Shown here: in pieces, positions 2,698 through 45,048 of the stretch | How the letters are laid out: the number at the start of each line of letters is the position of its first letter | Position numbering within the stretch: the first letter of the stretch is position 1 | Assembly: GCF_000190635.1 (NCBI RefSeq) | Contig: NC_015172.1 | Location: 3,100,001 to 3,164,000 of the forward strand | DNA from: Syntrophobotulus glycolicus DSM 8271 | Lineage (GTDB): Bacteria; Bacillota; Desulfitobacteriia; Desulfitobacteriales; Syntrophobotulaceae | DNA: 64,000 nt | Direction: 5' to 3' | Program-made: the position numbers and the translations under genes | Notes under the pieces: model-generated | Database searches by the model: none | The model's input: the letters and a program-made list of their open reading frames with translations, nothing else | Told to the model about the DNA's origin: nothing

Positions 2698-5600
2698 AAA
2701 AACGATTATTAAGCGTCGCGCTGGCACTGTGCATGGTCGTAACCCTGCTGCCGGTTTCGGCTATGGCGGAGGAAACGGGCGCATTAGGTAAAAGCGGTGA
2801 AATCACCAGCTTTGAGCCGCTTGCAGAAACAGAAAAGGCGGTGGCACTTGGCACCTTGCTGGAAAATTTAGAATTGCCCCAGACACTGACCGCCACGGTG
2901 CGGACAGCAAAACTCGTGCAGGATTCCGAAAGTTCGGCACCTGCGGACAATTCTGATACCCAGGACGGCGGTACCGTTTCTGACAACGGCGGCACCACCC
3001 CCGCAGCGGAAGATTCTGACCATCAGCTTGCCGGCACACCGTCCGACGCGCAGGAGCCGTCTGCCGACGGTGATCATGACGAGCCGATTCAAGTGCAAGC
3101 TGCCACCGGCTCTGAATGGGAAGAAAACACCGTGGAAATTCCTGTGACATGGGCTTCTGCTGATTACGACATGGACACCAAGGGCAGCTATGTATTCACA
3201 CCGGTAATTGAAGGCTATACGGTCAGCGCCGACCTGCCGGAAATTACTGTGACGGTGGGCTCTATGGCGCTGAGTGCGCTGAGTGCAACGATCGCACTCA
3301 GCAGCACAGACCTCTGGGTGGGCGGAACGCAGGTGACCGCCACAGGTGCTGTAAGCGGCTCGGGCATTGAGGGAACCGTCACCTACGACGCTGACCAGAA
3401 TATTCTGACCCTCAACGGTGCAACCATTACAAGCGCGTATACAGATGGTTCCAATAATAAGTATGGCATTTACACCACGGGCTCCCTTTCCATTGTGCTG
3501 TCGGGCACGAACACCATTACTGCGCAGGATAACGGCAGCGATGGGAAAACCTACGTTATTTATACGGGGGGCAGCCTTGCCATTAGCGGCAGTGGCACAC
3601 TCGCCGCCAACGGCGGTACCGGCACCGCCAGCTACGGCATATACGCCGCCGCCGTCAGCGTTGAAGAAAGCGCCGAGGTAACCGCCACCGGCGGCGAGGC
3701 CAGCACCAGCTGCGGCATATACGCTACCGCCGTCAGCGTTGAAGAAAGCGCCGTAGTAACCGCCACCGGCGGCGAGGCCACCGGCAGCTACGGCATAGAC
3801 GCTACCACCGTCAGCATTAAAGAAAACGCCAGGGTAACCGCCACCGGCGGCTACGGCAGCAGCAAAAGCTACGGCATCTATAGCGCTAACACCGTTGCCA
3901 TCAGCGGCGCCGCCAATGTAAAGGCCACCAGCGGCACCGGCGCCAGTAGCGGCATCAGCGACGTCTACGGCATATTCGTCCGTACCGGAAACCTTACCAT
4001 TGAGGACAGTGCCATATTCGAAGCCACCGGCAACAACAGTAACCGTGACAGTTGCGGCATAGTCGTCGTTACCGGCGATATCATCATCAGCGGAGGCACA
4101 GTAACTGCCGAGAGCCTCGCTGCCGCCTCCATAAGCTACGGCATATACGTCAATACCGGCAGTATCACCATCAGCGAAGCCACAGTAACCGCCAAGGGCG
4201 GCACTGCCTCCACAAGCCACGGCATATACGCCGGTAACGGCAGTATCACCATCAGCGGAGCCACAGTAACCGCCGAGGGCGGCACTGCCTCCGCAAGCAA
4301 AGGCATAACCGCCTTTATCCAAAGTATCACCATCAGCCGCAGCGAGGTAACTGCCAAGGGCGGCACTGTTGCAATGAGTAAGGTGCCCAGCTATGCAGGC
4401 GTGCAGGTTTCGGCTGGCACTCTTATAGACGGCAGCAATGCCGCCACGGTAAAATTGACAAGCAGCAACATTACCAGTTTAAAATATATTAAGATTGAGC
4501 CAAAGGCAAGCGGCGCCGAGCAATTCGACCTTGCCGCCGGCGGCACCTACTACTTTGACCTATCGGGAGAAACGGGCAACATCGGCACGGTGAACACTGC
4601 CCTGCCGGACACAACTCTGCACTATGTGCCCTTTACCTACGTGGGTACGGTGACTGCGTACAGACTTGAAAGCAGCAGCAATGGCGACACGGGCGCATCA
4701 GCGGCAGCAACCGCAAGCGACCGCAGTCTGTTTGTGGGGGATTATAATATTGGCAACAACATCAGTTGGGATACCTTGAGTACGAACGGCCTCATCTTTG
4801 GCAAAACCTTTGATGGAAACTACAAGCTGCGCGCCTTGAGCGCAGGCAGCAGTGAAGTGGACAGTAAAGGCTCTCCGGCCACCAACGAGTGGGATCAGAT
4901 TTTGGATAAAGCAAATTCAACCGACAATACAACAGGCTGGATCAAAAATTGGAGTGCCCAATACTCTTGGGGGCAGGATACTTCTGAAACTGTTTCATTA
5001 TACCGCGCTATGCGGGGGTTCTCCGGCGCGCGCACTTGGAGTTTTAACATGAGTACCGATCCGAACTACGCCTTCCGTCCCGCCCTTGAGGTACTGGAGC
5101 CTGACACACTGGGCGATGACGGACTGAAAGCCGTCACACTGAACCTCAACGGTGGCACACTGAAGGGCGATACGGCGAACATTAAAATCATCTGTGCGGG
5201 CAATAGCTTCAAAGCGCCAAGCGGCGAAGGGCTGACAGCACCCGAGGGCAAGACCTTTACCAACTGGAAGGATACGAACAGTACAACAACCTACGCTGCG
5301 GGTGTAGCTGTGCCCAAAACCGTGACCGGGTTAACTGCACAGTGGGAGGTATCCATTACGGAGATACCCGTACCAACCGCAAACACCGGCCTGAAATGGA
5401 CGGGAAGTGTTCTGACCGGCGTGAACGCAGGAATCGGCTATACCCTGAGCGGAGATTATCAGAAAACAGAGGTTGGTGATTACACCGCCACGGCAACACC
5501 GCAATCCGGCTATGCGTGGAACGATAGCACGGCCACACCCCAAAGCATTCCATGGAGCATCGCAAAGGCTGACGGCCCCGCCGCTCCTACCACGCTTTCC

Positions 5601-8265: not shown

Positions 8266-8355
8266 TATTGCCAAGGGCAAACCCGGTGAAAGCCGGGGGC
8301 GCAAAGCTACAGGGTCTAAGGCGTTTGATAAAACGCTACGATAGCCTGGCTGCCA
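8266..8355 (+). ncRNA. Cyclic di-GMP-I (GEMM) riboswitch aptamer, located 3' of the SLH gene
   Basis: This 90-nt stretch matches the c-di-GMP-I aptamer consensus: GGGCAAA at 8275-8281; a stem closed by a GAAA tetraloop (8282-8287 paired with 8292-8297, loop 8288-8291); the core GGCGCAAAGC (8299-8308); GGGTCTAAG; a second hairpin GCGTTT-GATA-AAACGC (8321-8336); and the closing CTACGATAGCCTGGCTGCC. It begins only about 16 nt after the stop of the surface-protein gene and reads in the same direction. The next gene is convergent, so there is no coding region for it to control downstream. It is either a 3'-UTR element of the SLH transcript or the leader of a lost gene. Confidence 0.88.
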
Positions 8356-8361
8356 AAAACC

Positions 8362-19093: not shown

Positions 19094-19099
19094 AACATC

Positions 19100-19275
19100 A
19101 ACCCACCTCGTTTGTAGGATAATCTAGGTTTTGATCCAACTAATGAAAAGGGAACCTTAAGTGACTTCAGGAGTACGGCAAGCCTTCTCAGGATGGAAGC
19201 CGGAAACTGTCGGCCTGGTGCCCACCTGCATGTGCAGGGTCATAAAACTTAGAGTCTTACGGCCAGGCGGGATTA
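19100..19275 (+). ncRNA. ssrS: Candidate 6S RNA (ssrS)
   Basis: A non-coding stretch of about 175 nt behind its own promoter. It folds on paper as one long rod. The ends pair (CCCACCT 19102-19108 with AGGCGGG near 19265-19271; GTAGGAT with GTCTTAC; TCTAGGTTT with AAACTTAGA). A central unpaired region follows, with a small hairpin CCTGCA-TG-TGCAGG on its 3' side. An inner stem is closed by GGGAACC and GGTGCCC, leading into a terminal arm. This closing stem, central bubble and terminal arm is the 6S RNA architecture that mimics an open promoter and sequesters sigma-A RNA polymerase. I identify it by structure and remembered Firmicute 6S words, not by a model search. Confidence 0.6.
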
Positions 19276-19284
19276 TTTCTATCA

Positions 19285-32777: not shown

Positions 32778-34013
32778 TCAGTCCTTCCTGTTATCCAAAA
32801 CCCGCTTTGTTTTCTTTTCACTTCTCGGCAATTGACCGATTTCCAGAATTTCTACGTCTGCCTGAATCCCGATTTTCCGTTTAAAGGCCGACCTGACCAC
32901 ATTCTGAACCATGCCTTGATCACTGCCGCTTTCGCTTTCGAGGCGCAGGATCACTCTGTCCCGGCCTTTCTCATGGTTAATTTCCAACTGGTATTCACTG
33001 CTTGCTTCGGGAATTGTCCGCAGGAATTCATCAATCTGGGCCGGGAAGATGTTGACCCCCTTGACCTTGACCATATCATCCGAGCGCCCAATCATGATGT
33101 CATGACGGGGATACGGGCTTCCGCACGGGCATTGACCGGGGATTAATCTGGTGATATCCCTGGTCCGGAAACGGACTAAGGGAGCGGCCTCTTTTCTTAA
33201 GGTCGTAATGACCAGTTCCCCATACTGTCCGTGGGGCAAAATCCTGCCGGTCTCCGGATCAATGACCTCAAAATAAAGAAAATCGTCCCAGTAATGAAGC
33301 CCGCTATGCTGTCCGCAATCGATCGAAATCCCCGGTCCGTAAATCTCTGTCAGACCGTAGATGTCAAATACCTCAATATTCAATTCTCGGCTGATTCTGC
33401 CGCGCATCTTGGCGCTCCACCGTTCCGAGCCGAAAATCCCCCTGCGCAGGCGAATCTGATCCCCGATCCCTCTTTTGGCCACTTCTTCGGCGATCAAAAG
33501 AGCATAAGAAGATGTCGCCGTCAAAACCGTAGTCTTCAAGTCCATCATGATCTGCAGCTGTTTGTCCGTATTGCCGGGGCCTGTGGGAACAGCCATCGCT
33601 CCCAGGAGTTCGGCGCCTGCCTGAAACCCGATGCCCGCAGTCCAAAGACCATATCCGGGTGTGATTTGAACGCGGTCCGATTGGGTTACCCCCGCAAATT
33701 CATAGCATCTCTTCATCATTTCCGCCCAATCAGCCACATCCTGAGCTGAGTAAGGAATCACAACAGGGATCCCTGTCGTCCCCGAGGAAGAATGGATTCT
33801 GACCACCTTCTCCTCCGGTACGGCCCGGAGCCCCAGCGGATATGCCTCTCTCAGCTCTTCCTTCGTTGTGAAGGGGATCCCTTCAAAGTCTTCCGCAGTT
33901 CTGATCTCCTGACTCCGAACCCCGTGTTTTTGAAATTTATCCCGATAAAAGGGACTATCCTTTTCCACCCGCTCAATTAATTTCCGAAGCGCAGAAAATG
34001 TTTGCTCATCCAT
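32778..34013 (-). CDS. paaK: Phenylacetate-CoA ligase family (arylacetate-CoA ligase)
   Basis: A 411-residue AMP-forming acyl-CoA ligase of the PaaK family. The ATP motif is IHSSSGTTGIPVVIPYSAQD, followed by ITPGYGLWTAGIGFQAGAEL, FDIYGLTEIYGPGISIDC and the C-terminal GRSDDMVKVKGVNIFPAQID. It converts an arylacetate (phenylacetate, indole-3-acetate, 4-hydroxyphenylacetate) plus ATP and CoA to the arylacetyl-CoA. It follows iorB by 10 bp and is the last gene of the T-box/ECF/ior operon. Given the tryptophan T-box, indole-3-acetate is my preferred substrate, by inference. In many genomes paaK beside iorAB is read as catabolic; here the regulation argues for salvage. Confidence 0.9.
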   Translation of the reverse strand: MDEQTFSALRKLIERVEKDSPFYRDKFQKHGVRSQEIRTAEDFEGIPFTTKEELREAYPLGLRAVPEEKVVRIHSSSGTTGIPVVIPYSAQDVADWAEMMKRCYEFAGVTQSDRVQITPGYGLWTAGIGFQAGAELLGAMAVPTGPGNTDKQLQIMMDLKTTVLTATSSYALLIAEEVAKRGIGDQIRLRRGIFGSERWSAKMRGRISRELNIEVFDIYGLTEIYGPGISIDCGQHSGLHYWDDFLYFEVIDPETGRILPHGQYGELVITTLRKEAAPLVRFRTRDITRLIPGQCPCGSPYPRHDIMIGRSDDMVKVKGVNIFPAQIDEFLRTIPEASSEYQLEINHEKGRDRVILRLESESGSDQGMVQNVVRSAFKRKIGIQADVEILEIGQLPRSEKKTKRVLDNRKD

Positions 34014-34023
34014 TCTTTTCCCC

Positions 34024-34662
34024 TCAGTTCATCCGCTTATATTCATAGCCTCCGGCTAAAGCTTTCAAATTCAATTCCACATACTTGCCGGGCAGATGGC
34101 TTTTGATACACTCTTCCACCGTTTCAATGCTGAACGGCAGCCATCCCGCCCCTAAAGCCACTCCCAGAAGCACCGTATTCAACGCTTTGGAAGATCCCGC
34201 TTCCGCCGCGATTTTATCCCCATCCACAAATACCGTGTCCGGAACATGAAAAGTAATATAAGAATACAACTTTTCCAGCTCCGCACCTGAACAAGGATAT
34301 GAAGAAAAAGCCGAACGGATCAAGCGGGTATTGACGATGCATTTTCCGTCCTTCGCCAGCAATAGGATGTTCTTACCGGTCTCAACCGGCTCAAAACCAA
34401 TGAGCAGGTCGGCCTTACCCGCGGGAATGATCGCTGATCCGCTGCGATCACCGATACGGACATGGCTGGTGACTGCTCCCCCTCTTTGAGCCATCCCAAT
34501 GGTTTCCGCCGTTCTGGCCAGGTATCCGGAATTCATCGCGGCCGAGGCCAAAAGCCTGGACGCGAGGACGGTCCCCTGACCTCCTACACCCGTGATCAAG
34601 ACATTGAACCTCTCTTCAGCAGACCGCCCGTCTGTTTTCATTCTTAATTCCTGTTTTGGCAT
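34024..34662 (-). CDS. iorB: Indolepyruvate:ferredoxin oxidoreductase beta subunit
   Basis: A 212-residue gamma-type domain subunit of the 2-oxoacid:ferredoxin oxidoreductase family: FNVLITGVGGQGTVLASRLL, then TAETIGMAQRGGAVTSHVRI and ADLLIGFEPVETGKNI. It pairs with IorA to interconvert arylpyruvates and arylacetyl-CoA with ferredoxin. ATG 34662 has GGAGG 7 nt upstream and lies inside the end of iorA (19-bp overlap), so translation is coupled. It is followed 10 bp later by paaK. Confidence 0.92.
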   Translation of the reverse strand: MPKQELRMKTDGRSAEERFNVLITGVGGQGTVLASRLLASAAMNSGYLARTAETIGMAQRGGAVTSHVRIGDRSGSAIIPAGKADLLIGFEPVETGKNILLLAKDGKCIVNTRLIRSAFSSYPCSGAELEKLYSYITFHVPDTVFVDGDKIAAEAGSSKALNTVLLGVALGAGWLPFSIETVEECIKSHLPGKYVELNLKALAGGYEYKRMN

Positions 34663-36512
34663 GAACCTTCCTCCCCGCGCTCTGTCCTGACTTTTATGGC
34701 CCGCAAAGCACATATTTGTGCACAAAGCCCGCAGCCCGCACATATGGCCTGATCAATCGCAATCCCTTCCTGATCCTGCACAAGTGCCGGACAGCCTGTT
34801 TCCCGCAGACATTTTCCGCAGGTTGTACAAACCTTGCGGTCTACCTCCACAATCCAGCGGTCTTTGACCATTGCTATACATGGTGAGCGATAAACCACAG
34901 CGGAAGGACCGGCATACTGTACAGCCTCTTTGGCTGCCGCAAGCGCTTGCGGCAAATCCAGAGGATCGGCGGTGAACACCGCTTCCATCCCGCAGGCTTT
35001 CAGCAGGGCGGGAATATCTATCCGGAAGGACGAGCCTTTCATCATCGTTTTTCCCAGGCCGGGATGGGGCTGATGCCCGGTCATGGCCGTGGTACTGTTG
35101 TCGAGGACAATAACCGTGATATCCGCCCGGTTGTATACCGCATTGATCACTCCCGTCAGACCGGAATGAAAAAAGGTGGAGTCCCCAATAAAGGCAACAT
35201 GTTTTTTATCCGGCTGAATGTGATAGAGGCCCTGGGCTATCGTGATTCCCGCCCCCATGCATAAACAGGTGTCAACAGCGTCTAACGGTTTGGTATTGCC
35301 CAGAGTATAACAGCCAATATCCCCTGTAAAAACCGTATCTGTTCTGTTCACTGCTTTGGTCACGGCATAAAAGGAAGCCCTGTGCGGACAGCCGGCACAT
35401 AAAACGGGAGGCCTGCCTGGAAAAGAAATTGCCGGACTACCGGCCCTTTCAGCAGTCCGGTGATTGATCCCCGTCTGATCCGGTTGGCCGGCTTTTGCCG
35501 TCAGCTCCTCCAAGGCTTTCTTGATGATTTCATAGCTTAATTCTCCGGCCACAGGCAAATGACCGCTTTTTTTGCCGAATAAAGCCGGCCTCCTGTCCAG
35601 AGCGGCAGAGGCCTTCAATATCGCTTCCTCAAGAACACCGTCCAGTTCTTCAACCGCGATCACCGTATCCAGACCGGCCATAAATTCCAGGGCGATTGCT
35701 TCAGGAAACGGATAAGGGGTCCCTATTTTCAGGACTTTCATTTCCAAATCCAGGTCTGCTATTACCTCGGCAACAAGATTGTAAGAATTCCCCCCGGTAA
35801 TCACTCCCGTCGTACCGCTCCCAGAAAGGTGATTAAATGGGAAGTGGGCAAAATCTCCGGCTAATTTCAGCTGGACTTCCTCAATATAAAGATGTTTGCG
35901 GTAAGCAAGAGGCGGAAAAATGACCCATTCCGGGCCTTTGACAAACCCCCCGGGATGATGCTTTACCCTGGCAGCCATCAAATCATCCGGAACCTCCAAA
36001 ACCGCGCAGGCATGGCAAACTCTGGTGGCAAGCCTGAGGATTACCGGCATCTTAATTTCCTCAGAAAGCCGGAAGGCTTCCTGTACCATCAAGAAGCCCT
36101 CTTCCGGTGTCGAAGGATCAAAGACAGGCAGGTTGGCAAACTTGCCGTAATGCCTGGTATCCTGTTCCGTCTGGGAGGAAATCGGCCCGGGGTCATCGGC
36201 AACGGCAATGACCAGCCCTCCGTTTACGCCGACATAGGACAGGCTCATCAACGGGTCTGAGGCGACATTCAAGCCCACCTGCTTCATCGTCACCAATACT
36301 CTGCCTCCGGCATAAGAGGCTCCGGCTCCGACTTCCATCGCCACCTTTTCATTGACCGACCACTCAACATAAATGTCCCCGGTATTCAACCGGGCTATCG
36401 TTTCCAGTATCTCTGTCGATGGAGTGCCCGGATAACCGGATACCAGATTGACTCCGGCCATAATGGCGCCTATCCCCACCGCTTCATTGCCCATGAGCAA
36501 GTTCTTAGACAT
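34644..36512 (-). CDS. iorA: Indolepyruvate:ferredoxin oxidoreductase alpha subunit
   Basis: A 622-residue ThDP and iron-sulfur enzyme. N-terminal pyrimidine domain: MSKNLLMGNEAVGIGAIMAG, VSGYPGTPSTEILE. C-terminal PP domain: CAGCPHRASFYAV, GDIGCYTLG, and the ThDP site FIGDSTFFHSGLTGVINAVY. The last 60 residues are a two-cluster ferredoxin (CTTCGKCLRETGCP and CAGCGLCAQICALRA). With IorB it catalyses indolepyruvate (or phenyl-/hydroxyphenylpyruvate) + CoA + oxidised ferredoxin to arylacetyl-CoA + CO2 and the reverse. ATG 36512 follows GGAGG. Only 18 bp separate it from ecfT, so it shares the T-box transcript. Confidence 0.94.
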   Translation of the reverse strand: MSKNLLMGNEAVGIGAIMAGVNLVSGYPGTPSTEILETIARLNTGDIYVEWSVNEKVAMEVGAGASYAGGRVLVTMKQVGLNVASDPLMSLSYVGVNGGLVIAVADDPGPISSQTEQDTRHYGKFANLPVFDPSTPEEGFLMVQEAFRLSEEIKMPVILRLATRVCHACAVLEVPDDLMAARVKHHPGGFVKGPEWVIFPPLAYRKHLYIEEVQLKLAGDFAHFPFNHLSGSGTTGVITGGNSYNLVAEVIADLDLEMKVLKIGTPYPFPEAIALEFMAGLDTVIAVEELDGVLEEAILKASAALDRRPALFGKKSGHLPVAGELSYEIIKKALEELTAKAGQPDQTGINHRTAERAGSPAISFPGRPPVLCAGCPHRASFYAVTKAVNRTDTVFTGDIGCYTLGNTKPLDAVDTCLCMGAGITIAQGLYHIQPDKKHVAFIGDSTFFHSGLTGVINAVYNRADITVIVLDNSTTAMTGHQPHPGLGKTMMKGSSFRIDIPALLKACGMEAVFTADPLDLPQALAAAKEAVQYAGPSAVVYRSPCIAMVKDRWIVEVDRKVCTTCGKCLRETGCPALVQDQEGIAIDQAICAGCGLCAQICALRAIKVRTERGEEGSCQNRN

Positions 36513-36530
36513 CAGATCCTCCTGCATCGA

Positions 36531-37310
36531 TCAAACAAATTTATTCCCAACCATTGCCCCAATCAGAACAAAAGTCAGTATGACGGCAGCATAATCCCCG
36601 GGCCCCGGCTTTATCACTCTGTAATTTGTCCGGTTTGCCCGGCTGAAACCCCTGATCTCCATGGAGACCGCTCTTGTTTGCACCCGCCGTACAGCCATGA
36701 CCAGAAGGGGAACAGCCAGTGAAGCAATGATTGGAATTTTTTTAAATATATTTTTGGTGTCACTGTCATAACCGCGGGCCGTCTGGGCTTTCATAATTCT
36801 CTGCATCTCGCTCAGATAGGCCGGTATAAACTGAATTGCGGTCAAAAACATAAAAACATAGCTATACGGAAGCTTAAGGTTCCCGGTCAGCGTGGAAGCC
36901 AAATCGGACATTCGTGTCGTCATCATCAGAAGGGGAATCGTGGAAACCGTGATCACCATCCGTAAGGCCATAATCGCCGATAACCGCAAGCCTTCATCTG
37001 TAATCCGGCCGATCCCGGCAAACGGAAGGACATAAAAAAGGGTATTGCCTTCCGTGACAAAAAACACCTGACAAATGATTAGTATAACAGAAAGAATCAA
37101 AAGACCAAACAATACCCTGGTCATTCTGGAGAAAAGGCCGGAAAAAGCGGCCGCGGCGACAACTGCGCCCAGCGCGGAAAGCAGAAAAGGGATATTATTC
37201 TCCATAAAGCAGACGACCAAAGCCGCCAGTGTCAAAAATATTTTGGTTAATGGGTGCAGTCTGTGCAAAAATGAATTCCCCGGAACATAATCAGTAAAAA
37301 TATCAATCAC
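36531..37310 (-). CDS. ecfT: ECF transporter transmembrane component EcfT
   Basis: A 259-residue membrane protein of the EcfT family with about six helices. The coupling motifs facing the ATPases are SEMQRIMKAQTARGYD and RVQTRAVSMEIRGFSR, the two Ala-Arg-Gly type motifs of EcfT (ARG and RG variants). It starts with GTG overlapping the stop of the upstream ATPase gene. With the two EcfA ATPases and the TrpP-like S component next to it, it forms a dedicated (group I-like) ECF importer. Confidence 0.9.
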   Translation of the reverse strand: MIDIFTDYVPGNSFLHRLHPLTKIFLTLAALVVCFMENNIPFLLSALGAVVAAAAFSGLFSRMTRVLFGLLILSVILIICQVFFVTEGNTLFYVLPFAGIGRITDEGLRLSAIMALRMVITVSTIPLLMMTTRMSDLASTLTGNLKLPYSYVFMFLTAIQFIPAYLSEMQRIMKAQTARGYDSDTKNIFKKIPIIASLAVPLLVMAVRRVQTRAVSMEIRGFSRANRTNYRVIKPGPGDYAAVILTFVLIGAMVGNKFV

Positions 37311-38128
37311 ACCCCCAGCTTCTTCCGCATCGCTTCAAATAATTCTTCAACAGACCAGCCTTGAATATCCAGGCCCCTCTCCTTTAAGAAATGAGCCAAT
37401 TGAAAAATTCCCGGCGACAAGAGTCCGGCCTCCTCCAGGATTTCCCCGTTTCTGAGAACAGAATGCACCGGGCCGTCGGCCAGAATACTGCCTGCTTTAA
37501 GCACCAGCACTCTCCGGGCGTATTTCAAGACCATATTCATATCATGAGTAATCATGATAATTGTTGTTCCCTGCCGGTTGCACCGGTCGATAATCTCCAT
37601 AATCTCCCGGCTTTCACTGAAATCCAACCCTGTCGTCGGCTCATCCAGAATCATAATTTCCGGATTCATTGCCAGGACCGAAGCAAAGGCCAGCCTCTGT
37701 CTGTCTCCCCTGCTCAGCGCAAAGGGATTTTCCTCCAGCTTGTCACTCAAGCCTACTGTCCGGGCCACCGACTTTGCTTTTTTCTCAGCCTCGGCCGGGG
37801 ACAGCCCGGAGTTCTTCGGACCTGCCATGATTTCCTGAATAACGGTGATATTAAAAATCTGGTGGTCAGGATTCTGAAATAAAAATCCAATATGCTTGGC
37901 CATCATGCTGGTACGGGTCACAGCCGGATCCAAGCCTGTCACGGAAACCTTGCCCCGTTCCGGTTTGAGCAAGCCGTTAAGATGCTGGATCAAAGAGGAT
38001 TTTCCGGCCCCATTATGCCCGACCAGGGCAATGAACTCCCCGGACTCAATCTTAAAGCTGATCTTATTCAGGATTTTCTTGCCGTCAGCTACGGTGAAAT
38101 CCAATCCTTCAACATTGATTACACCCAT
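37307..38128 (-). CDS. ECF transporter ATPase (EcfA)
   Basis: A 273-residue ABC ATPase: Walker A LVGHNGAGKSSLIQHL, Q loop LFQNPDHQIFN, Walker B IMILDEPTTGLDF and a switch His (ITHDMNMVL). The signature is ALSRGDRQRLAFASVL rather than LSGGQ, a variation seen in EcfA proteins. The C-terminal extension (ERGLDIQGWSVEELFEAMRK) is typical of ECF ATPases. It follows the first ATPase gene by 3 bp and overlaps ecfT. It powers tryptophan uptake with its partner. Confidence 0.9.
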   Translation of the reverse strand: MGVINVEGLDFTVADGKKILNKISFKIESGEFIALVGHNGAGKSSLIQHLNGLLKPERGKVSVTGLDPAVTRTSMMAKHIGFLFQNPDHQIFNITVIQEIMAGPKNSGLSPAEAEKKAKSVARTVGLSDKLEENPFALSRGDRQRLAFASVLAMNPEIMILDEPTTGLDFSESREIMEIIDRCNRQGTTIIMITHDMNMVLKYARRVLVLKAGSILADGPVHSVLRNGEILEEAGLLSPGIFQLAHFLKERGLDIQGWSVEELFEAMRKKLGV

Positions 38129-38131
38129 TGA

Positions 38132-38980
38132 TTATCTCCCTTTATCCAAGATCTCAGCAAGAATACCGCACGCTTCCTCCTCAGAAACAGGTATGGAAGA
38201 ATGATGGACTCCGACCCTCTTCAATAGGAAAAACAGCCGGGCGGCGGGCGGAACCTGCAAGCCGATTTCTTCTAAAATGTCCTGCTTCTCCAGAACATCC
38301 CTGCTGCCGCCTTCCAGGACAACAGAACCTTTATCCATAATCGCCAGCCTGTCACAGAACCTGAACAGGAGGTCCAGCTTTTGTTCAATGACCACGATCG
38401 TCATCCCATGTTTACGGTTTAAAGAAGTCAAAACATGAAATAATTCCAAAGAAGCCTGGGGATCCAATTCCGAGGTCGGTTCATCCATGATCAGAAGCTG
38501 CGGCCTCAAGGCCAATGCCGAAGCAATCGCGACACGCTGCTTTTGCCCTCCGGAAAGGCTCCAGATATTTGCCTGCCGCAGGTTGGAAATCCCTACCGCA
38601 GCCAGGCTTTCCGCGATCCTGACGTCCATCTCCTCTTTAGAAAAGCTCAGATTTTCCATACCAAAAACGATCTCATCTTCAACAACAGAGCTGACCAGCT
38701 GTGATTCCACATCCTGAAAAACACTCCCGGTCACAGAGCAAAGCTGATCAACCGGTGTTTCCATGATGTTCTTCCCGGCAATATAGATCTGGCCGCTAAA
38801 ATCCCCTTCAATCAGGCGGGGAACGGCTCCGTTCAGGCACATGGCAAATGTCGACTTACCGGCCCCGGCAGGACCGGCGATTCCATAAAACTGTCCTTTT
38901 TCCACCTTCAGCCTGAGGCCGTCCAGCGCTTTTCCGGCAGAGCCCTGATAGGAAAAGGAAAGATCTTGCACATCGATCAT
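38132..38980 (-). CDS. ECF transporter ATPase (EcfA')
   Basis: A 282-residue ABC ATPase: Walker A IAGPAGAGKSTFAMCL, Q loop VFQDVESQLVSSVVEDE, signature WSLSGGQKQRVAIASAL, Walker B LLIMDEPTSELDP and switch region TIVVIEQKLDLLF (Glu-Gln in place of His, as often in this EcfA type). It follows the S-component gene by 4 bp and precedes the second ATPase by 3 bp. The heterodimer of the two ATPases drives the ECF importer. Confidence 0.9.
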   Translation of the reverse strand: MIDVQDLSFSYQGSAGKALDGLRLKVEKGQFYGIAGPAGAGKSTFAMCLNGAVPRLIEGDFSGQIYIAGKNIMETPVDQLCSVTGSVFQDVESQLVSSVVEDEIVFGMENLSFSKEEMDVRIAESLAAVGISNLRQANIWSLSGGQKQRVAIASALALRPQLLIMDEPTSELDPQASLELFHVLTSLNRKHGMTIVVIEQKLDLLFRFCDRLAIMDKGSVVLEGGSRDVLEKQDILEEIGLQVPPAARLFFLLKRVGVHHSSIPVSEEEACGILAEILDKGR

Positions 38981-38984
38981 CGGT

Positions 38985-39554
38985 CTATTTACCTGCCTCT
39001 TTAACGGAAGTTGTCTTTTTCCCCAAAGCAGCCATGATCGGTTCGTAAATCAACTGAGCGATAACCGCGTTGGCCAGGGCGGTCGTCAAGATTACCGTTA
39101 ATAATCCCAGAAAGGCGGGGTTCTTTGCTGTCGCCACAAACAAAACAGCAAATTTCAAAATGCTGACATAGGTCAGGCCACTGGCCATCGTACCCAGCAA
39201 AGTGACGATAAAGGGCTTAAACGTGATCCGTCCTCTATTGAGCCCGGACAATCCCCTGACCAGGAAATAGGTTACGACAGCTCCGACCGGCTCACTGATA
39301 AAGTTAATATAGGGAATCATGGATTTCGTCGTGAAATGGCAAATAGCGGCGGCGACAATCCCGATTCCCAGCGCCTGTGCAAGGCTGGGCCGGACGATCA
39401 AAATAGCCAGAACGTACATACAAATCACAAAATTGGGGGTGATTCCAAAAATAGGCGGGCAGAAAACTCTAAGCACCGCGCCTGCGGCCAGGAGCGCCCC
39501 TACCAGAACAATATCGGTCGCAGAGAGGGTTTTCTTCATTGTTGTCGGCATCAT
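38985..39554 (-). CDS. trpP: Tryptophan-specific ECF S component (TrpP/YhaG-like)
   Basis: A 189-residue, roughly six-helix membrane protein. The segment FCPPIFGITPNFVICMYVLA and the following ILIVRPSLAQALGIGIVAAA resemble the TrpP (YhaG) tryptophan transporter, including the Pro-x-Phe-x-Gly-x2-Pro motif and the later IPYINFISEPVGAVVTYFL that corresponds to the IPN-x3-KP region. It is the first gene after a T-box leader whose specifier reads TGG, which independently points to tryptophan. Genes for two ATPases and EcfT follow directly. It binds substrate in the membrane for import. Confidence 0.8.
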   Translation of the reverse strand: MMPTTMKKTLSATDIVLVGALLAAGAVLRVFCPPIFGITPNFVICMYVLAILIVRPSLAQALGIGIVAAAICHFTTKSMIPYINFISEPVGAVVTYFLVRGLSGLNRGRITFKPFIVTLLGTMASGLTYVSILKFAVLFVATAKNPAFLGLLTVILTTALANAVIAQLIYEPIMAALGKKTTSVKEAGK

Positions 39555-39603
39555 CCATCGTTCCTTTCAGAATATAAATTTCATCAGTCCTAAAAAAATT
39601 AAT

Positions 39604-39917
39604 GCAAAAAAAGCCACATCGCCAATTACTGGGGCGATATAGCTCGCGGTGCCACCCATTTCGGAAATCAAGCTTATCCGCTAAGCAGATTTCCCTCCTT
39701 CAAGGTACGCAACTCCGGCTCACACCGTTGTATCAATACCCTTCCCTGATAACGCCGGGACAGACGGCACAGGCTACTTGGGTCAACCCCTTTCACCCTG
39801 CTCCTCACAGAACCATTCACCGGATTCCTTTGTACCGGACCTTACACCGACCGCCGGCTCGCTTGACAAGTTTCCGCCAGTTACTTTTTCTGTTCATCGG
39901 ATTTTACACTAAAATTT
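39604..39917 (-). promoter_or_regulatory. tRNA-Trp T-box riboswitch leader
   Basis: A complete T-box leader on the minus strand. The T-box word TGGGTGGCACCGCG (RC of 39645-39658) pairs in the antiterminator with uncharged tRNA. The competing terminator is a 12-bp stem (loop near 39624-39632, arms closing on 39613 and 39643) followed by T7 at 39606-39612. Stem I shows the AGTA motif, an AGCGAG (GA) motif, GGTCGGTGTAAGG and the specifier context GAA-TGG-TTCTGTGAGGAG; the predicted specifier codon is TGG (Trp) at 39815-39813. Uncharged tRNA-Trp should allow read-through into the ECF/ior/paaK operon. Specifier assignment is by eye. Confidence 0.92.
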
Positions 39918-39923
39918 ATCTCT

Positions 39924-39952
39924 ATCATAGAGGGTCCTTATTGTTCTGTCAA
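39924..39952 (-). promoter_or_regulatory. Sigma-A promoter of the T-box operon
   Basis: Consensus TTGACA (RC of 39947-39952) and TATGAT (RC of 39924-39929) with a 17-bp spacer on the minus strand, placing the start near 39917 just before Stem I. Confidence 0.85.
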
Positions 39953-40062: not shown

Positions 40063-41214
40063 TCAGAGTGATCTCATCTTAGCTCCGGCTGCCATCAGGC
40101 GTATGGCCATTTCCGCCGCCCTCACCGTAAGTTCCCGGCCCTCGGCCATCGCTTCATCCAGTGACATGGGACGGTTGACAATGGGGATAATGGCATTTAA
40201 GCCGTACTGATACAGGTCTTCCGCACCTTCCCCCACCGAACCGACTATGGCGATAACGGGCTTGCCTTGCTTTTGACCCCGGCTTGCCACTCCCATGGGC
40301 ACTTTGCCGAAAGCAGACTGGGCATCCATCCTGCCTTCACCTGTGATAATCAGGTCTGCTTCCTCGGCCATCCGGTCAAATTCGATCGTTTCCAGGATTG
40401 CCTCGGTTCCTGACTTCAAAACCGCCCCGGTAAAAGCCATCAGCCCTCCGCCCAGTCCTCCGGCCGCGCCGGCCCCGGGAACATCTTTGATCTCTGTTCC
40501 GTTCTGCCGCTTAATGACTTCGGCCAGGTGACCGAGGCAACTGTCGAGATGGACCACCATTTCCGGAGTCGCCCCTTTTTGCGGACCATAGACAGCCGAG
40601 GCCCCTCTTGGGCCGCATAACGGATTGTCCACATCACACATGACGGTAATCTCCAGGTCACGAATCCTCTGATCTGCTCCGGAAAAATCGATCCGGTGCA
40701 AGGACAGCAGAGATCCTCCGCCCTCCGGGAGCTCCCGCTCGTTTTGATCGAGGAACCTGATTCCCAAGGCTCTGGCCATACCGGTCCCACCGTCATTAGT
40801 GGCGCTTCCGCCTATCCCGATCAGGATTCTGCGAATCCCGCGGTCCAGGGCGAGGGCGTATTTGATCAACTCCCCTGTTCCCCGGGTGGTGGTGATCAAG
40901 GGATTCCTCTTCTCCTTTGGAACAAGGGGCAGCCCGGAAGCCGCAGCCATTTCCATAACCGCGATTCCGCCTTGGATAATCCCAATTTTCGCTTGCACAG
41001 GATCACCTAAAGGGCCTGTTACCGTGTAAGTCAGATACTCGCCTTCACAGGCAATAACCATGGCCTCAACAGTACCTTCACCGCCATCGGCGATCGGAAT
41101 GATCCTGACAGCAGCCTCGGGAATAACGTTTTTGATCCCGCCGGTTATTGCCTGGCCGACTTCCAAGCTGCTCAGACTTCCCTTAAATGAATCAGAAGCG
41201 ATCAGTACTTTCAT
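40063..41214 (-). CDS. glxK: Glycerate 2-kinase (GarK/GlxK family)
   Basis: A 383-residue class-I glycerate kinase. It begins MKVLIASDSFKGSLSSLEVG and contains PIADGGEGTVEAM, IGIGGSATNDGGTGMARALG, GPQKGATPEMV and ADLIITGEGRMDAQSAFGKV, all diagnostic. It phosphorylates D-glycerate to 2-phosphoglycerate, the final step of the gcl-hyi-glxR route that takes glyoxylate into glycolysis. It is the last gene of that minus-strand group, followed by a strong terminator. Confidence 0.94.
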   Translation of the reverse strand: MKVLIASDSFKGSLSSLEVGQAITGGIKNVIPEAAVRIIPIADGGEGTVEAMVIACEGEYLTYTVTGPLGDPVQAKIGIIQGGIAVMEMAAASGLPLVPKEKRNPLITTTRGTGELIKYALALDRGIRRILIGIGGSATNDGGTGMARALGIRFLDQNERELPEGGGSLLSLHRIDFSGADQRIRDLEITVMCDVDNPLCGPRGASAVYGPQKGATPEMVVHLDSCLGHLAEVIKRQNGTEIKDVPGAGAAGGLGGGLMAFTGAVLKSGTEAILETIEFDRMAEEADLIITGEGRMDAQSAFGKVPMGVASRGQKQGKPVIAIVGSVGEGAEDLYQYGLNAIIPIVNRPMSLDEAMAEGRELTVRAAEMAIRLMAAGAKMRSL

Positions 41215-41323
41215 TCCTCAGCCCTCCAGGTAATCGAATGTCAACCCTATTCCTCTTCGTTTTATCCGAATTTTGCGGTTTCACTTCATTTTGCTTTGGG
41301 AAATCTATCCTGCCGGACGAAAT

Positions 41324-42217
41324 TTAATTTTGTTTCCTGATCTCAACGTTGGCAAGCTTTTCATAGTAGAGAGCAAGGCCGCCATGGTCCTTGTCGCCGT
41401 GGCCGTCAACCTTGAGAGCCTGCATCATTTCCATTACTGAAGCGGAGAGCGGAAGAGGCACCCCTACTTCGTGACCGGTTTCCATAATATTGTTCAGATC
41501 CTTAATGTGCAGATTGATCCGGAAGCCCGGGTCAAATTTTCTGGCCATAACCAGCGGAGCTTTGGCATCGAGAACAGTGCTGCCGGCCAGTCCTCCTCTG
41601 ATCGCCTGATAAACACTGTCCGGATCAACACCTGCTTTGGTCGCCAGGGTCAGAGCTTCGGACATCGCCGCGATGTTGACGGCAACAATGATCTGGTTGG
41701 CCAGCTTGGTCACATTGCCCGCACCGATATCGCCGCAAAGGACTGCGGAAGCACCCATGCATTTTAAGATCGGCAAGCTTTCGTCAAAGTCAGCCTGGGA
41801 ACCCCCCACCATAATAGACAGGGTCCCGTCAATCGCCTTGGGCTCCCCGCCGCTGACGGGAGCATCAATGAACCGTATTCCCTGAGCAGCGAGTTTTTCA
41901 CCGATTTCCCTGCTGACCAGCGGGGCAATAGAGCTCATATCGATAACAATGGAGCCTTTTTTCGCTCCTTCAAGCACTCCGTTTGCTCCAAGCACAACTT
42001 CCTTCACATGAGGTGAATTGGGCAGCATGGTGATAATGACCTCTGATTTCTCGGCGACCTCTTTGGAGGATGAAGCTGCCTGGGCCCCGGCCTGTACAAC
42101 CTCTTCGACAACCTTTCCGTTATGATCAAAAACAACCAGCTCGTAACCTGCTTTGAGCAAATTCTTGCTCATGGGTTTACCCATAATGCCTAATCCAATA
42201 AAACCGATTTTTTTCAC
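41324..42217 (-). CDS. glxR: Tartronate semialdehyde reductase (2-hydroxy-3-oxopropionate reductase)
   Basis: A 297-residue beta-hydroxyacid dehydrogenase: NAD(P) site FIGLGIMGKPMSKNLLKAGY, substrate motif DAPVSGGEPKAIDGTLSIMV, catalytic Lys in GAGNVTKLANQIIVAVN and C-terminal KDLNNIMETGHEVGVPLPL. It reduces tartronate semialdehyde to D-glycerate. The start is GTG 42217 with GGGGGAT upstream. It lies between hyi and glxK in the glyoxylate operon, which selects tartronate semialdehyde over other family substrates. Confidence 0.93.
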   Translation of the reverse strand: MKKIGFIGLGIMGKPMSKNLLKAGYELVVFDHNGKVVEEVVQAGAQAASSSKEVAEKSEVIITMLPNSPHVKEVVLGANGVLEGAKKGSIVIDMSSIAPLVSREIGEKLAAQGIRFIDAPVSGGEPKAIDGTLSIMVGGSQADFDESLPILKCMGASAVLCGDIGAGNVTKLANQIIVAVNIAAMSEALTLATKAGVDPDSVYQAIRGGLAGSTVLDAKAPLVMARKFDPGFRINLHIKDLNNIMETGHEVGVPLPLSASVMEMMQALKVDGHGDKDHGGLALYYEKLANVEIRKQN

Positions 42218-42303
42218 TGAGATATCCCCCTTAAGTTAATATAGATTGTTTTGTTGATGCGTATTTTGTTTTCAGATTATGTTTTGAGGCTGTATTGTCA
42301 TCA

Positions 42304-43089
42304 TTACAGCTTGTAACCGTAACTGCCCACCCAAGAAAGGGAATCCACAGTATCACCGGTTGGCTTGTATTCCATACCGATATACCCTTCATAGCCTTTT
42401 TGAGCAAGTGTTTCAAAAATCTCTTTGATTTTAATACTTCCCGTACCGGGCTGGTTACGTCCGGGATTGTCGGCAACCTGAACATGCCCGATTTTACTCA
42501 GGTATTTCTCAATGATTTCATCATGGTTCTCTTCTTCCTTATCCGCATGATAGATATCATATTGCAGGTAAATATTCGGTTCCTTGGCCAGCTCGATCAC
42601 TTCCATGCCATGCTTGGTGGTATTAATCGTAAAACCGGGCATATCAATATGATTGATCGGCTCCACCATCAAATCAAGACCGGCTTTTTGAAATTCCCTG
42701 GCGGCATAAGCCAAATTATCGGCAATGTTGGTCAGAACCTCTTCTCTGCTGTAATTGCCCTTGACCATACCGCAAAGACAGTTGACTTTTTTGGTTCCCA
42801 GAATCCCGGCTGCTTCGACTGCTTTTCCTACGGAAGCCGTAAACTCCGCTTTTCTGTCCGGATCGGCTGCAAGCCCCCTGTCGCCGCCGGCCCAGTCGCC
42901 GGCAGGCAGGTTGAACAGAACCAGCTTAAGATTGTTCTTTTCCAGCTCTTCTTTCACCTGCGCAATGTCGAAATCATAAGGAAACATAAACTCGACATTT
43001 TTGAATCCGGCTTTGGCAGCCGCGGCAAACCTTTCCATAAAAGGATGCTCGTTAAAGAGGAAATTCAGGTTAGCGCTAAATTGTGGCAT
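42304..43089 (-). CDS. hyi: Hydroxypyruvate isomerase
   Basis: A 261-residue AP-endonuclease-2/TIM-barrel enzyme starting MPQFSANLNFLFNEHPFMER. Family motifs are VEPINHIDMPGF, YLQYDIYHAD, IGHVQVADNPGRNQPGTGSI and YIGMEYKPTGDT, including the metal-binding Glu, Asp, His and Glu. It interconverts hydroxypyruvate and tartronate semialdehyde. It follows gcl by 192 bp with a terminator hairpin in between, and precedes glxR. Confidence 0.94.
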   Translation of the reverse strand: MPQFSANLNFLFNEHPFMERFAAAAKAGFKNVEFMFPYDFDIAQVKEELEKNNLKLVLFNLPAGDWAGGDRGLAADPDRKAEFTASVGKAVEAAGILGTKKVNCLCGMVKGNYSREEVLTNIADNLAYAAREFQKAGLDLMVEPINHIDMPGFTINTTKHGMEVIELAKEPNIYLQYDIYHADKEEENHDEIIEKYLSKIGHVQVADNPGRNQPGTGSIKIKEIFETLAQKGYEGYIGMEYKPTGDTVDSLSWVGSYGYKL

Positions 43090-43215
43090 TTTTTTATAAA
43101 CCCCCTAAATGATTATTTTCTCCTCAAAGAGAGGTAAGTCCTGCTTTCATCAATATCATTATATTTTTCTCCCGGAACGAAGACAAGCCCTTTACCAAAA
43201 CTTTACACCGTTGTG

Positions 43216-43263
43216 TCAAAAAGAGCATCACGGATGGCCTGGCGTCAGCAGGCCGCCCGTGAT
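43216..43263 (-). terminator. Intergenic terminator/attenuator between gcl and hyi
   Basis: ATCACGG...CAGGCC-type hairpin: 43227-43233 pairs with 43257-43263 and GGCCTG pairs with CAGGCC inside. On the minus strand it is followed by CTTTTTG. It would end part of the gcl transcripts before hyi. Confidence 0.7.
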
Positions 43264-43281
43264 TCTGCCTTGGATACCGGC

Positions 43282-45048
43282 TTAGAAAACTTCTTGAACA
43301 CCGCCGATTGTGCCATCGGTCGAAACCGAACACATCGCCTGCGGATCAACCAGCAGCTCAATCAGATATGGTCTGCCGGAAGTAAAGGCTCTGTCCAGCG
43401 CTTCCCCAATTTTGTTGGGGTCCTGCACCTGCTCCGCGCCCAGACCAAATCCTTTCGCTACCGTCACAAAATCAATCCCCCGGTAATCCCCATTATTGCA
43501 ATACTGCAGGTCTGTGGAAATCCAGCGTTTATCGAAAAACATATTTTGCTGCTGGCGGATCAGCCCCAACAGAGAATTGTTCAACAGGAAGACCACGATA
43601 GGAATATTGTGTTTAGCCGCTGTCGCCAAATCCCCGATCGACATCCCCAGACTGCCGTCCCCCAGGAGGTTGACACACTGTTTTTCCGGATAGGCCAGTT
43701 TTGCCGCCATCGCAGCCCCCAGCCCCCAGCCCATGTTGCCGGCGCGGCCGGTAATCAGGTAGCTTTTAGGCTCATAGGCCTCAAAGATCTGGGAAGAAAG
43801 AATCTGGCTGATTCCACAGTCGTGAGTCACTACCGCATCCCTGTCCAGATACTTTCTCAGCTCGGCAATCGCTCTTTGCGGCTTCATCGGGTACATGTCA
43901 AAATCAGTTCTGCGGGCATAGGCCTGTTTTTCTTCAGCCCTTTCTTTGATCTTCCATTTAAACGAAGTGCCCTGATCGCCGGTCCCCTGTTTGATCTCTT
44001 TGACCAACTCTGTCATAAAATTCTTCACATCGGCATGGATATTCAGATCAGCCTGAACAGATTTATTGAATCCCTCACTGTCAATATTGACCTGGATGAA
44101 CCGGCGCTCTTTCGTAAACAAGCTCAGATTACCGGTCGTCCGGTCTGAGAAACGCCCCCCCAGATTGATCACCAGATCCGACTCCAGCAAGGTCTTATTG
44201 CCGTACGGAGAATTACAGATCGTTCCCACCATCCCCGCATAAAGAGCATGATCATTGGGAAAGCAGTCTTTGCCCATTAAGGTGGCAACCACGGGCACAT
44301 TCAGGAGTTCAGCCAATTCTCTGAGCTCTTGATGAGCATTGCTCAGGTTTACTCCGCCGCCGACCATGATCACAGGCTTTTGGGCCTGCCTGATCATGGA
44401 AAGAGCGGACTGCACAGCCTGAGGCTCAACGGGCGGAGCTGACGGAATGTCTTCCTCGTCGTTCAGCCATTTTTCCAGATCAATACTCAGAACAGTCTTC
44501 TGGACATCGAGCGGCAGATCGAGCAGGACGGGACCCCTTTTGCCGGTCGTCGCCTTATTCCAGGCCTCTTTGATGATAAAAGGCATCTCAAAAGCCTGAT
44601 CAACGAGATAAGCCGCTTTCGTCACAGGCTTAGCCATTTCTACTATAGGCGCTTCCTGGAAAGCGTCTTTGCCGATCAAAGCAACCGGGACCTGACCGGT
44701 TATGGCCAGCATCGGGGTCGCATCACCGTAGGCTCCGTACAGCCCAGTCAGGAAATTGGTTGCCCCCGGCCCGGAAGTGGCCGCACAGACAGCCATCTTC
44801 CCCGTCGCCCTGTAGTATCCGTCCGCCATAAACGCGGCCATTTGTTCATGCCTCACATTTATAGAGCGAATCGCCCCCTGCTCCCTTACCGCATCGTAAA
44901 AAGGCAGGATGGCCGCTCCCGGAATCCCAAAGAGATGTTCTACCCCCTTATGCTGCAAAAATCTGGCGAGCAGCTCAGCACAGGTGATTGTTGTCGCTCC
45001 TTCTTCATTAGCTGTTTTCTTTTCTTCTTTTTCTCCCCACAAAGCCAT
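43282..45048 (-). CDS. gcl: Glyoxylate carboligase-like ThDP enzyme (retains the catalytic Glu)
   Basis: A 588-residue ThDP enzyme with an extra N-terminal 22 residues. Motifs: FGIPGAAILPFYDAV, ATSGPGATNFLTGLYGA, the ThDP site LLGDGSLGMSIGDLATAAKH and NNSLLGLIRQQQNMFF, the last closely like Gcl. It would join two glyoxylates to tartronate semialdehyde and CO2. Unlike E. coli Gcl, which has Val51 at the position of the cofactor-activating Glu, this protein reads VRHEQMAAFMADGY with Glu (E68), as in acetolactate synthase. Context (hyi, glxR, glxK) supports the glyoxylate role. ATG 45048 has AAGGAGG upstream. An acetolactate-synthase-like activity is the main alternative. Confidence 0.82.
   Translation of the reverse strand: MALWGEKEEKKTANEEGATTITCAELLARFLQHKGVEHLFGIPGAAILPFYDAVREQGAIRSINVRHEQMAAFMADGYYRATGKMAVCAATSGPGATNFLTGLYGAYGDATPMLAITGQVPVALIGKDAFQEAPIVEMAKPVTKAAYLVDQAFEMPFIIKEAWNKATTGKRGPVLLDLPLDVQKTVLSIDLEKWLNDEEDIPSAPPVEPQAVQSALSMIRQAQKPVIMVGGGVNLSNAHQELRELAELLNVPVVATLMGKDCFPNDHALYAGMVGTICNSPYGNKTLLESDLVINLGGRFSDRTTGNLSLFTKERRFIQVNIDSEGFNKSVQADLNIHADVKNFMTELVKEIKQGTGDQGTSFKWKIKERAEEKQAYARRTDFDMYPMKPQRAIAELRKYLDRDAVVTHDCGISQILSSQIFEAYEPKSYLITGRAGNMGWGLGAAMAAKLAYPEKQCVNLLGDGSLGMSIGDLATAAKHNIPIVVFLLNNSLLGLIRQQQNMFFDKRWISTDLQYCNNGDYRGIDFVTVAKGFGLGAEQVQDPNKIGEALDRAFTSGRPYLIELLVDPQAMCSVSTDGTIGGVQEVF

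Follow-up and report, generated by a model that had tools for sequence, protein, structure and literature searches.

A tryptophan T-box operon that links a predicted tryptophan importer to indolepyruvate oxidoreductase and an arylacetate-CoA ligase suggests tryptophan salvage from indole-3-acetate in anaerobic Bacillota

Why should genes for indolepyruvate oxidoreductase and an arylacetate-CoA ligase follow those of a predicted tryptophan importer, behind a leader that is expected to sense uncharged tRNA-Trp? The question is raised by a locus of Syntrophobotulus glycolicus DSM 8271, which we analysed within a window of 64,000 nucleotides (the whole stretch of DNA studied; contig NC_015172.1, positions 3,100,001 to 3,164,000), whose own numbering is used below. 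The locus is probably a tryptophan-acquisition operon, governed by attenuation at a tryptophan T-box, that would both import tryptophan and rebuild it from indole-3-acetate.

The operon comprises seven genes on the minus strand (39554-32778), in which neighbours overlap or lie no more than 10 bp apart. The first four encode a predicted tryptophan ECF transporter, for which indoleacetate is a possible further cargo: an S component of the TrpP family (38985..39554; Pfam TrpP, 36.2 bits, cut-off 27.2), two EcfA ATPases (38132..38980, TIGR04520, 231 bits; 37307..38128, TIGR04521, 268 bits) and the transmembrane component EcfT (36531..37310; Pfam CbiQ, 100.8 bits). These are followed by the alpha subunit of indolepyruvate:ferredoxin oxidoreductase, IorA (34644..36527; TIGR03336, 704 bits, cut-off 650.9), which also matches Pfam TPP_enzyme_C and has C-terminal Fe–S cysteines that are kept in orthologues. 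The beta subunit, IorB (34024..34641), matches Pfam POR at 126 bits and falls below the cut-offs of the NCBIfam IorB models; its gene probably starts near 34641 and not at the first ATG of the open reading frame (34743). The last gene (32778..34013) encodes an AMP-forming arylacetate-CoA ligase of the PaaK superfamily (TIGR02155, 403 bits, cut-off 646.3). Family models bear out the original prediction for the S component, both EcfA copies, EcfT and IorA; its assignment of the ligase to PaaK did not hold, as the protein is not a canonical member. The tight spacing supports a single transcription unit, as had been proposed for all seven genes, and the search for internal promoters gave no conspicuous candidate: the two strands of the region together have 11 sites, compared with 6.8 ± 2.4 in shuffled sequences.

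Adjoining the operon on the same strand (40063-45048) are open reading frames that we read as glycerate kinase, tartronate semialdehyde reductase, hydroxypyruvate isomerase and glyoxylate carboligase, a set that suits the glyoxylate and glycolate metabolism of S. glycolicus. Elsewhere in the window are a c-di-GMP-I riboswitch (8266-8357, plus strand, 78.4 bits) and a 6S RNA (19097-19277, plus strand, 63.5 bits).

The specificity of the leader was established from several features. A sigma-70-type promoter (TTGACA-17-TATGAT; 39924..39952, minus strand) agrees with the consensus at 11 of 12 positions, a match in sequence that accords with the near-consensus promoter described originally. It is followed on the same strand by a T-box leader (39627..39906) that covers the full Rfam model RF00230 at 99.5 bits (E 1e-20; gathering score 93 bits), including Stem I, the antiterminator and the T-box sequence. 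The Rfam alignment, together with the register of the other T-boxes of the genome, places a UGG (tryptophan) specifier codon at 39813..39815, and the antiterminator carries UGGC (39651..39654), which is complementary to the GCCA end of the genome's own tRNA-Trp. An intrinsic terminator hairpin (39611..39645; −19.4 kcal/mol, z −3.65), followed by a U run, overlaps the antiterminator arm, so that the two predicted folds are mutually exclusive.

Nine T-boxes were found in the S. glycolicus genome. When read in a common register, their specifiers fit the downstream genes as we name them from their open reading frames: AUC for ileS, ACC for thrS, GUC for valS, CUC for leuA, GGC for glyQ, UUC for DAHP synthase and UGG for trpE (the pheS T-box aligned poorly and was left out). 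UGGC occurs only in the leaders of the window and of trpE, and the others have UGGU or UGGA; tRNA-Trp has G73 and the 3′ end GCCA, and pairs with UGGC. Because the specifier and the match between UGGC and G73 are independent features, the leader can be regarded as tryptophan-specific, and an alternative reading of the specifier as GGU (glycine) was rejected because of the register and of the pairing between UGGC and G73. On these sequence features the leader is a transcriptional T-box of the tryptophan class, and the TGG specifier first proposed for it is upheld.

The ligase departs from PaaK in a systematic way. Its clade has the signature GYGLWTAGxGFQ with GSERW, compared with GYGLFTGGLG and GxEPW in PaaK-like proteins, and is supported at 100/99 in the tree; the protein of the window carries GYGLWTAG and lacks the PaaK motif GYGLFTGG. 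Judged by motif and tree, the operon ligase belongs to a clade separate from PaaK, and its low score against the TIGR02155 equivalog, together with the different motif, rules out canonical PaaK. Its best solved relatives are phenylacetate-CoA ligases, and when it is aligned to these the stretch that holds the changed residues is one that we take to line the aryl pocket. We propose that the enzyme is an indoleacetate-CoA ligase. A second paaK–iorA–iorB cluster of S. glycolicus (G000:C1:188000-192000; L011 and L027) encodes a ligase of the general PaaK type, approximately 40% identical to the operon copy, and no T-box motif was found at that cluster. The sister group of the ligase clade is deltaproteobacterial (L099–L104) and shares the WTAG motif; iorAB genes were not found beside these ligases, except for a weak ior cluster in L099.

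Conservation of the gene order in relatives, which the original prediction had put forward as a check, was observed. The same seven genes, with 55–72% identity and a UGG T-box, occur in a second genus of the family (L019 and L063, one and the same locus), where an aminotransferase gene adjoins the operon on the opposite strand; none lies within the S. glycolicus operon. The seven-gene order is also kept in a Desulfosporosinus metagenome-assembled genome (L020, also numbered L085), described below. When genome contigs were scanned with the ligase, 42 loci at 47% identity or higher were recovered. A UGG T-box immediately precedes iorA in Sporomusa acidovorans, S. ovata, Desulfosporosinus acididurans, Clostridium thermopalmarium, gut Oscillospiraceae, Peptococcaceae relatives and others; in Acetobacterium it precedes only the ligase gene. 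In Acetobacterium and L076, in which only the ligase has the T-box, the IorA that was found belongs to the other IorA clade and has no T-box. The Rfam model confirmed the UGG T-boxes of seven relatives (84.5–107.7 bits), and every T-box found on the ior–ligase module reads UGG, none UUC or UAC. If the Desulfosporosinus-like and Oscillospiraceae leaders are set aside, most of the relatives' T-boxes have UGGU rather than UGGC. A tryptophan leader was not found in the carriers L065, L068, L155 and L205–L208, or in those from Lachnospiraceae and Slackia.

The window leader is 70–72% identical to Desulfosporosinus leaders that directly precede iorA, and 46% identical to the trpE leader of its own genome. 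In view of this resemblance, the ECF genes were most likely gained or lost between leader and iorA. Across the loci compared, the ior–ligase pair is the constant core of the module, to which ECF genes are added in some cases only. UGG T-boxes in another genus of the family (L021, 10066-10319; L022, 7238-7488) stand before trpP–ecf operons that have no ior or ligase genes.

The Desulfosporosinus genome with the seven-gene operon (G040) has no T-box there. Its leader contains nine GAG repeats at an exact spacing of 2 nt, followed by a terminator-like hairpin, and the genome encodes TRAP (mtrB, PF02081). It has only three TRAP-like sites with at least six repeats: one precedes a trpE-like gene, another lies within the trp operon and the third precedes the ior–ligase operon. 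Leaders of this type were detected in Desulforamulus, Desulfotomaculum, Desulfofundulus and the Desulfosporosinus genome (L080, L082, L083 and L085; p 0.0005 each), and mtrB is present in all four. It also occurs in L084, in which the leader lies off the contig, and in L065 and L068, for which no TRAP-type leader was found. We did not find mtrB in S. glycolicus or in three other tested genomes of its family, and it was absent from every T-box genome tested. With NAG repeats 2–3 nt apart, a terminator and mtrB, the four relatives have leaders that we predict to be TRAP-controlled. Thus, two unrelated tryptophan sensors, a UGG T-box in some orthologous operons and a TRAP-type leader in others, precede the same genes.

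The final TRAP statistic allows one irregular step; it was chosen after L080–L085 and then left unchanged for the survey and its controls. A version without the spacing break and a plain count of KAG density discriminated less well, and a reversed-pattern control carries no information for GAG repeats, as GAG is palindromic as read. A methylglyoxal synthase gene, identified by family match, lies between iorB and the ligase gene in L065 (9366-9830), and L068 has a similar open reading frame (3807-4301).

How general is this control? In a set of 219 genomes from the phylum, the scores for IorA fell into two groups, at 574 bits or higher (34, including that of S. glycolicus) and at 496 bits or lower. 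A tryptophan-responsive leader was predicted for 28 of the 33 other members of the upper group: UGG T-boxes before iorA in 4, TRAP-type leaders directly before iorA in 18 and TRAP-type leaders before trpP in full trpP–ecf–ior operons in 6, leaving 5 with neither. None of the 20 control iorA paralogues of the lower group had a T-box or TRAP-type leader (Fisher p 2.6e-10 for 28/33 compared with 0/20, in genomes that are related to one another); a T-box-like match in control L185 was discarded because it lies inside a coding sequence. The TRAP-type assignments of the survey rest on the GAG-repeat statistic, for which single p values of 0.02–0.03 carry little weight by themselves, with mtrB checked in the earlier set only, and at least one genome is shared with the training set of that statistic (L204 repeats L083). 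Predicted tryptophan control of ior and ligase genes is nevertheless widespread among related bacteria.

The carriers differ in their own capacity to make tryptophan. S. glycolicus itself encodes the whole pathway, trpEGDCFBA, in one operon with a UGG T-box of its own, and should therefore be able to do without a salvage route, which is a point against the proposal. However, trpA was not found in 7 of 27 tested genomes, all seven of which have the module, and trpC (IGPS) is missing from the same seven, with one sub-threshold trpC match in C. thermopalmarium. All seven retain prephenate dehydratase, and so keep the phenylalanine pathway, and five (L069, L071, L076, L079 and L081), C. thermopalmarium among them, have a UGG T-box on the module. 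Several of the genomes without trpA and trpC are metagenome-assembled and perhaps incomplete, but those of C. thermopalmarium and two Slackia species come from isolates. The module could be the only route to tryptophan in these carriers.

We propose the following mechanism by analogy with the T-box family and the known reactions of the enzymes. When tryptophan is scarce, the anticodon of uncharged tRNA-Trp would pair with the UGG specifier and the GCCA end of the same tRNA would bind UGGC; the terminator would not form and the operon would be expressed. The TrpP-type ECF transporter would import tryptophan, or possibly indole-3-acetate. The ligase would activate indole-3-acetate with ATP and CoA to the CoA thioester, from which IorAB, running in reverse of its catabolic reaction, would form indolepyruvate by carboxylation, using CO2 and reduced ferredoxin. 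A transaminase encoded elsewhere would then yield tryptophan. Besides the intact trp operon of S. glycolicus, several observations weigh against this scheme: the operon contains no aminotransferase gene, the T-box of Acetobacterium and L076 is on the ligase only, some carriers show no tryptophan leader, and UGGU replaces UGGC in many of the relatives' T-boxes.

As families, T-box and TRAP both raise expression under tryptophan scarcity. A pathway that destroys tryptophan makes little sense under such control and a route from indole-3-acetate to tryptophan makes good sense, and the earlier suggestion that starvation control fits scavenging is strengthened by the tryptophan leaders, of either type, on orthologous operons and by the carriers without trpA or trpC. 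For these reasons we consider it very unlikely that imported tryptophan is oxidized through indolepyruvate and indoleacetyl-CoA to indoleacetate to yield reduced ferredoxin, even though the arylpyruvate oxidoreductases of gut acetogens work in this way in vitro (PMC13290082). The ligase is AMP-forming, which also speaks against oxidation: ligases of this kind favour acyl-CoA synthesis, as argued in PMC13285125.

A broader salvage, in which phenylalanine and tyrosine are further, or even the main, products of the ligase and IorAB, formed from phenylacetate and 4-hydroxyphenylacetate with tryptophan status as the signal, is unlikely, although it is the more serious competitor. The same paper reports that known indolepyruvate oxidoreductases accept phenyl-, hydroxyphenyl- and indolepyruvate (PMC13285125), and the kinship of the ligase with phenylacetate-CoA ligases points the same way. 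By contrast, the absence of UUC and UAC specifiers from the module, the retention of prephenate dehydratase in carriers without the tryptophan pathway and the departure of the ligase clade from PaaK at invariant motif positions all favour a tryptophan-specific role. That the ior and ligase genes are chance passengers in a tryptophan importer operon is scarcely credible. The trpP–ecf operons of L021 and L022 do exist under UGG T-boxes without them, but many genomes that lack the ECF genes have a tryptophan leader immediately upstream of iorA or the ligase, the window leader resembles iorA leaders more than its own trpE leader, and the phylum survey speaks strongly against coincidence.

Beyond the single operon, we lean slightly towards a dedicated salvage of indole-3-acetate to tryptophan that is widespread in anaerobic Bacillota, uses the new ligase clade, is controlled by T-box or TRAP, provides the sole route to tryptophan in some species without trp genes and may draw on ECF import of indole-3-acetate. 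Rumen bacteria were reportedly found by Allison and Robinson in the 1960s to make tryptophan from indole-3-acetate; if our proposal is correct, it would identify the genes behind that activity, show how they are regulated and provide a marker clade. Some organisms predicted from their genomes to be tryptophan auxotrophs could then build tryptophan from a waste product of a partner, and the indole-3-acetate of gut and sediment would be a nutrient besides a signal. The exchange of T-box for TRAP on orthologous genes offers a clear natural experiment on replacement among RNA regulators.

In the literature searched we found no described T-box or TRAP leader on ior or paaK genes; two central T-box catalogues, which may list one, lie outside that coverage. 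The original claim of novelty has to be tempered because of two precedents. Table 2 of a 2009 Geobacter genome paper (PMC2700814) has an entry 'tryptophan (iorAB-paaK)', for which a conserved 5′ sequence is given: the gene trio and its assignment to tryptophan are the same, whereas the section concerned does not call the sequence a T-box or TRAP site, includes no importer and leaves the function undeveloped. For Bacteroides, a 2026 paper suggests that an indolepyruvate oxidoreductase encoded beside an AMP-forming arylacetate-CoA ligase acts anabolically (PMC13285125), which matches the gene pairing and direction proposed here, although tryptophan-responsive control is not mentioned in the part seen. 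The T-box-regulated tryptophan genes of PMC2494555 (trpE operons and TnaT-like NSS transporters) share the sensor and the logic; the targets named in the text searched are genes for biosynthesis, tRNA ligases and transporters, and ior and phenylacetate go unmentioned there. The Bacillus TRAP (mtrB) regulon resembles the relatives' leaders in its NAG repeats 2–3 nt apart, the terminator that follows and mtrB in the genome, but here, in relatives of the window and not in the window itself, the target is a trpP–ecf–ior–ligase operon. Methanogens provide a further parallel: in Methanococcus maripaludis (Porat et al. 2004) and with the anabolic enzyme of Methanobacterium, as cited in PMC4162585 and PMC13285125, a ligase and IorAB are proposed to work in the reductive direction, so that aryl acids are turned into aromatic amino acids. 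That pathway supplies aromatic amino acids generally, whereas the operon described here is bacterial and combines a separate ligase clade and a predicted tryptophan importer with RNA control that appears to be strictly tryptophan-specific.
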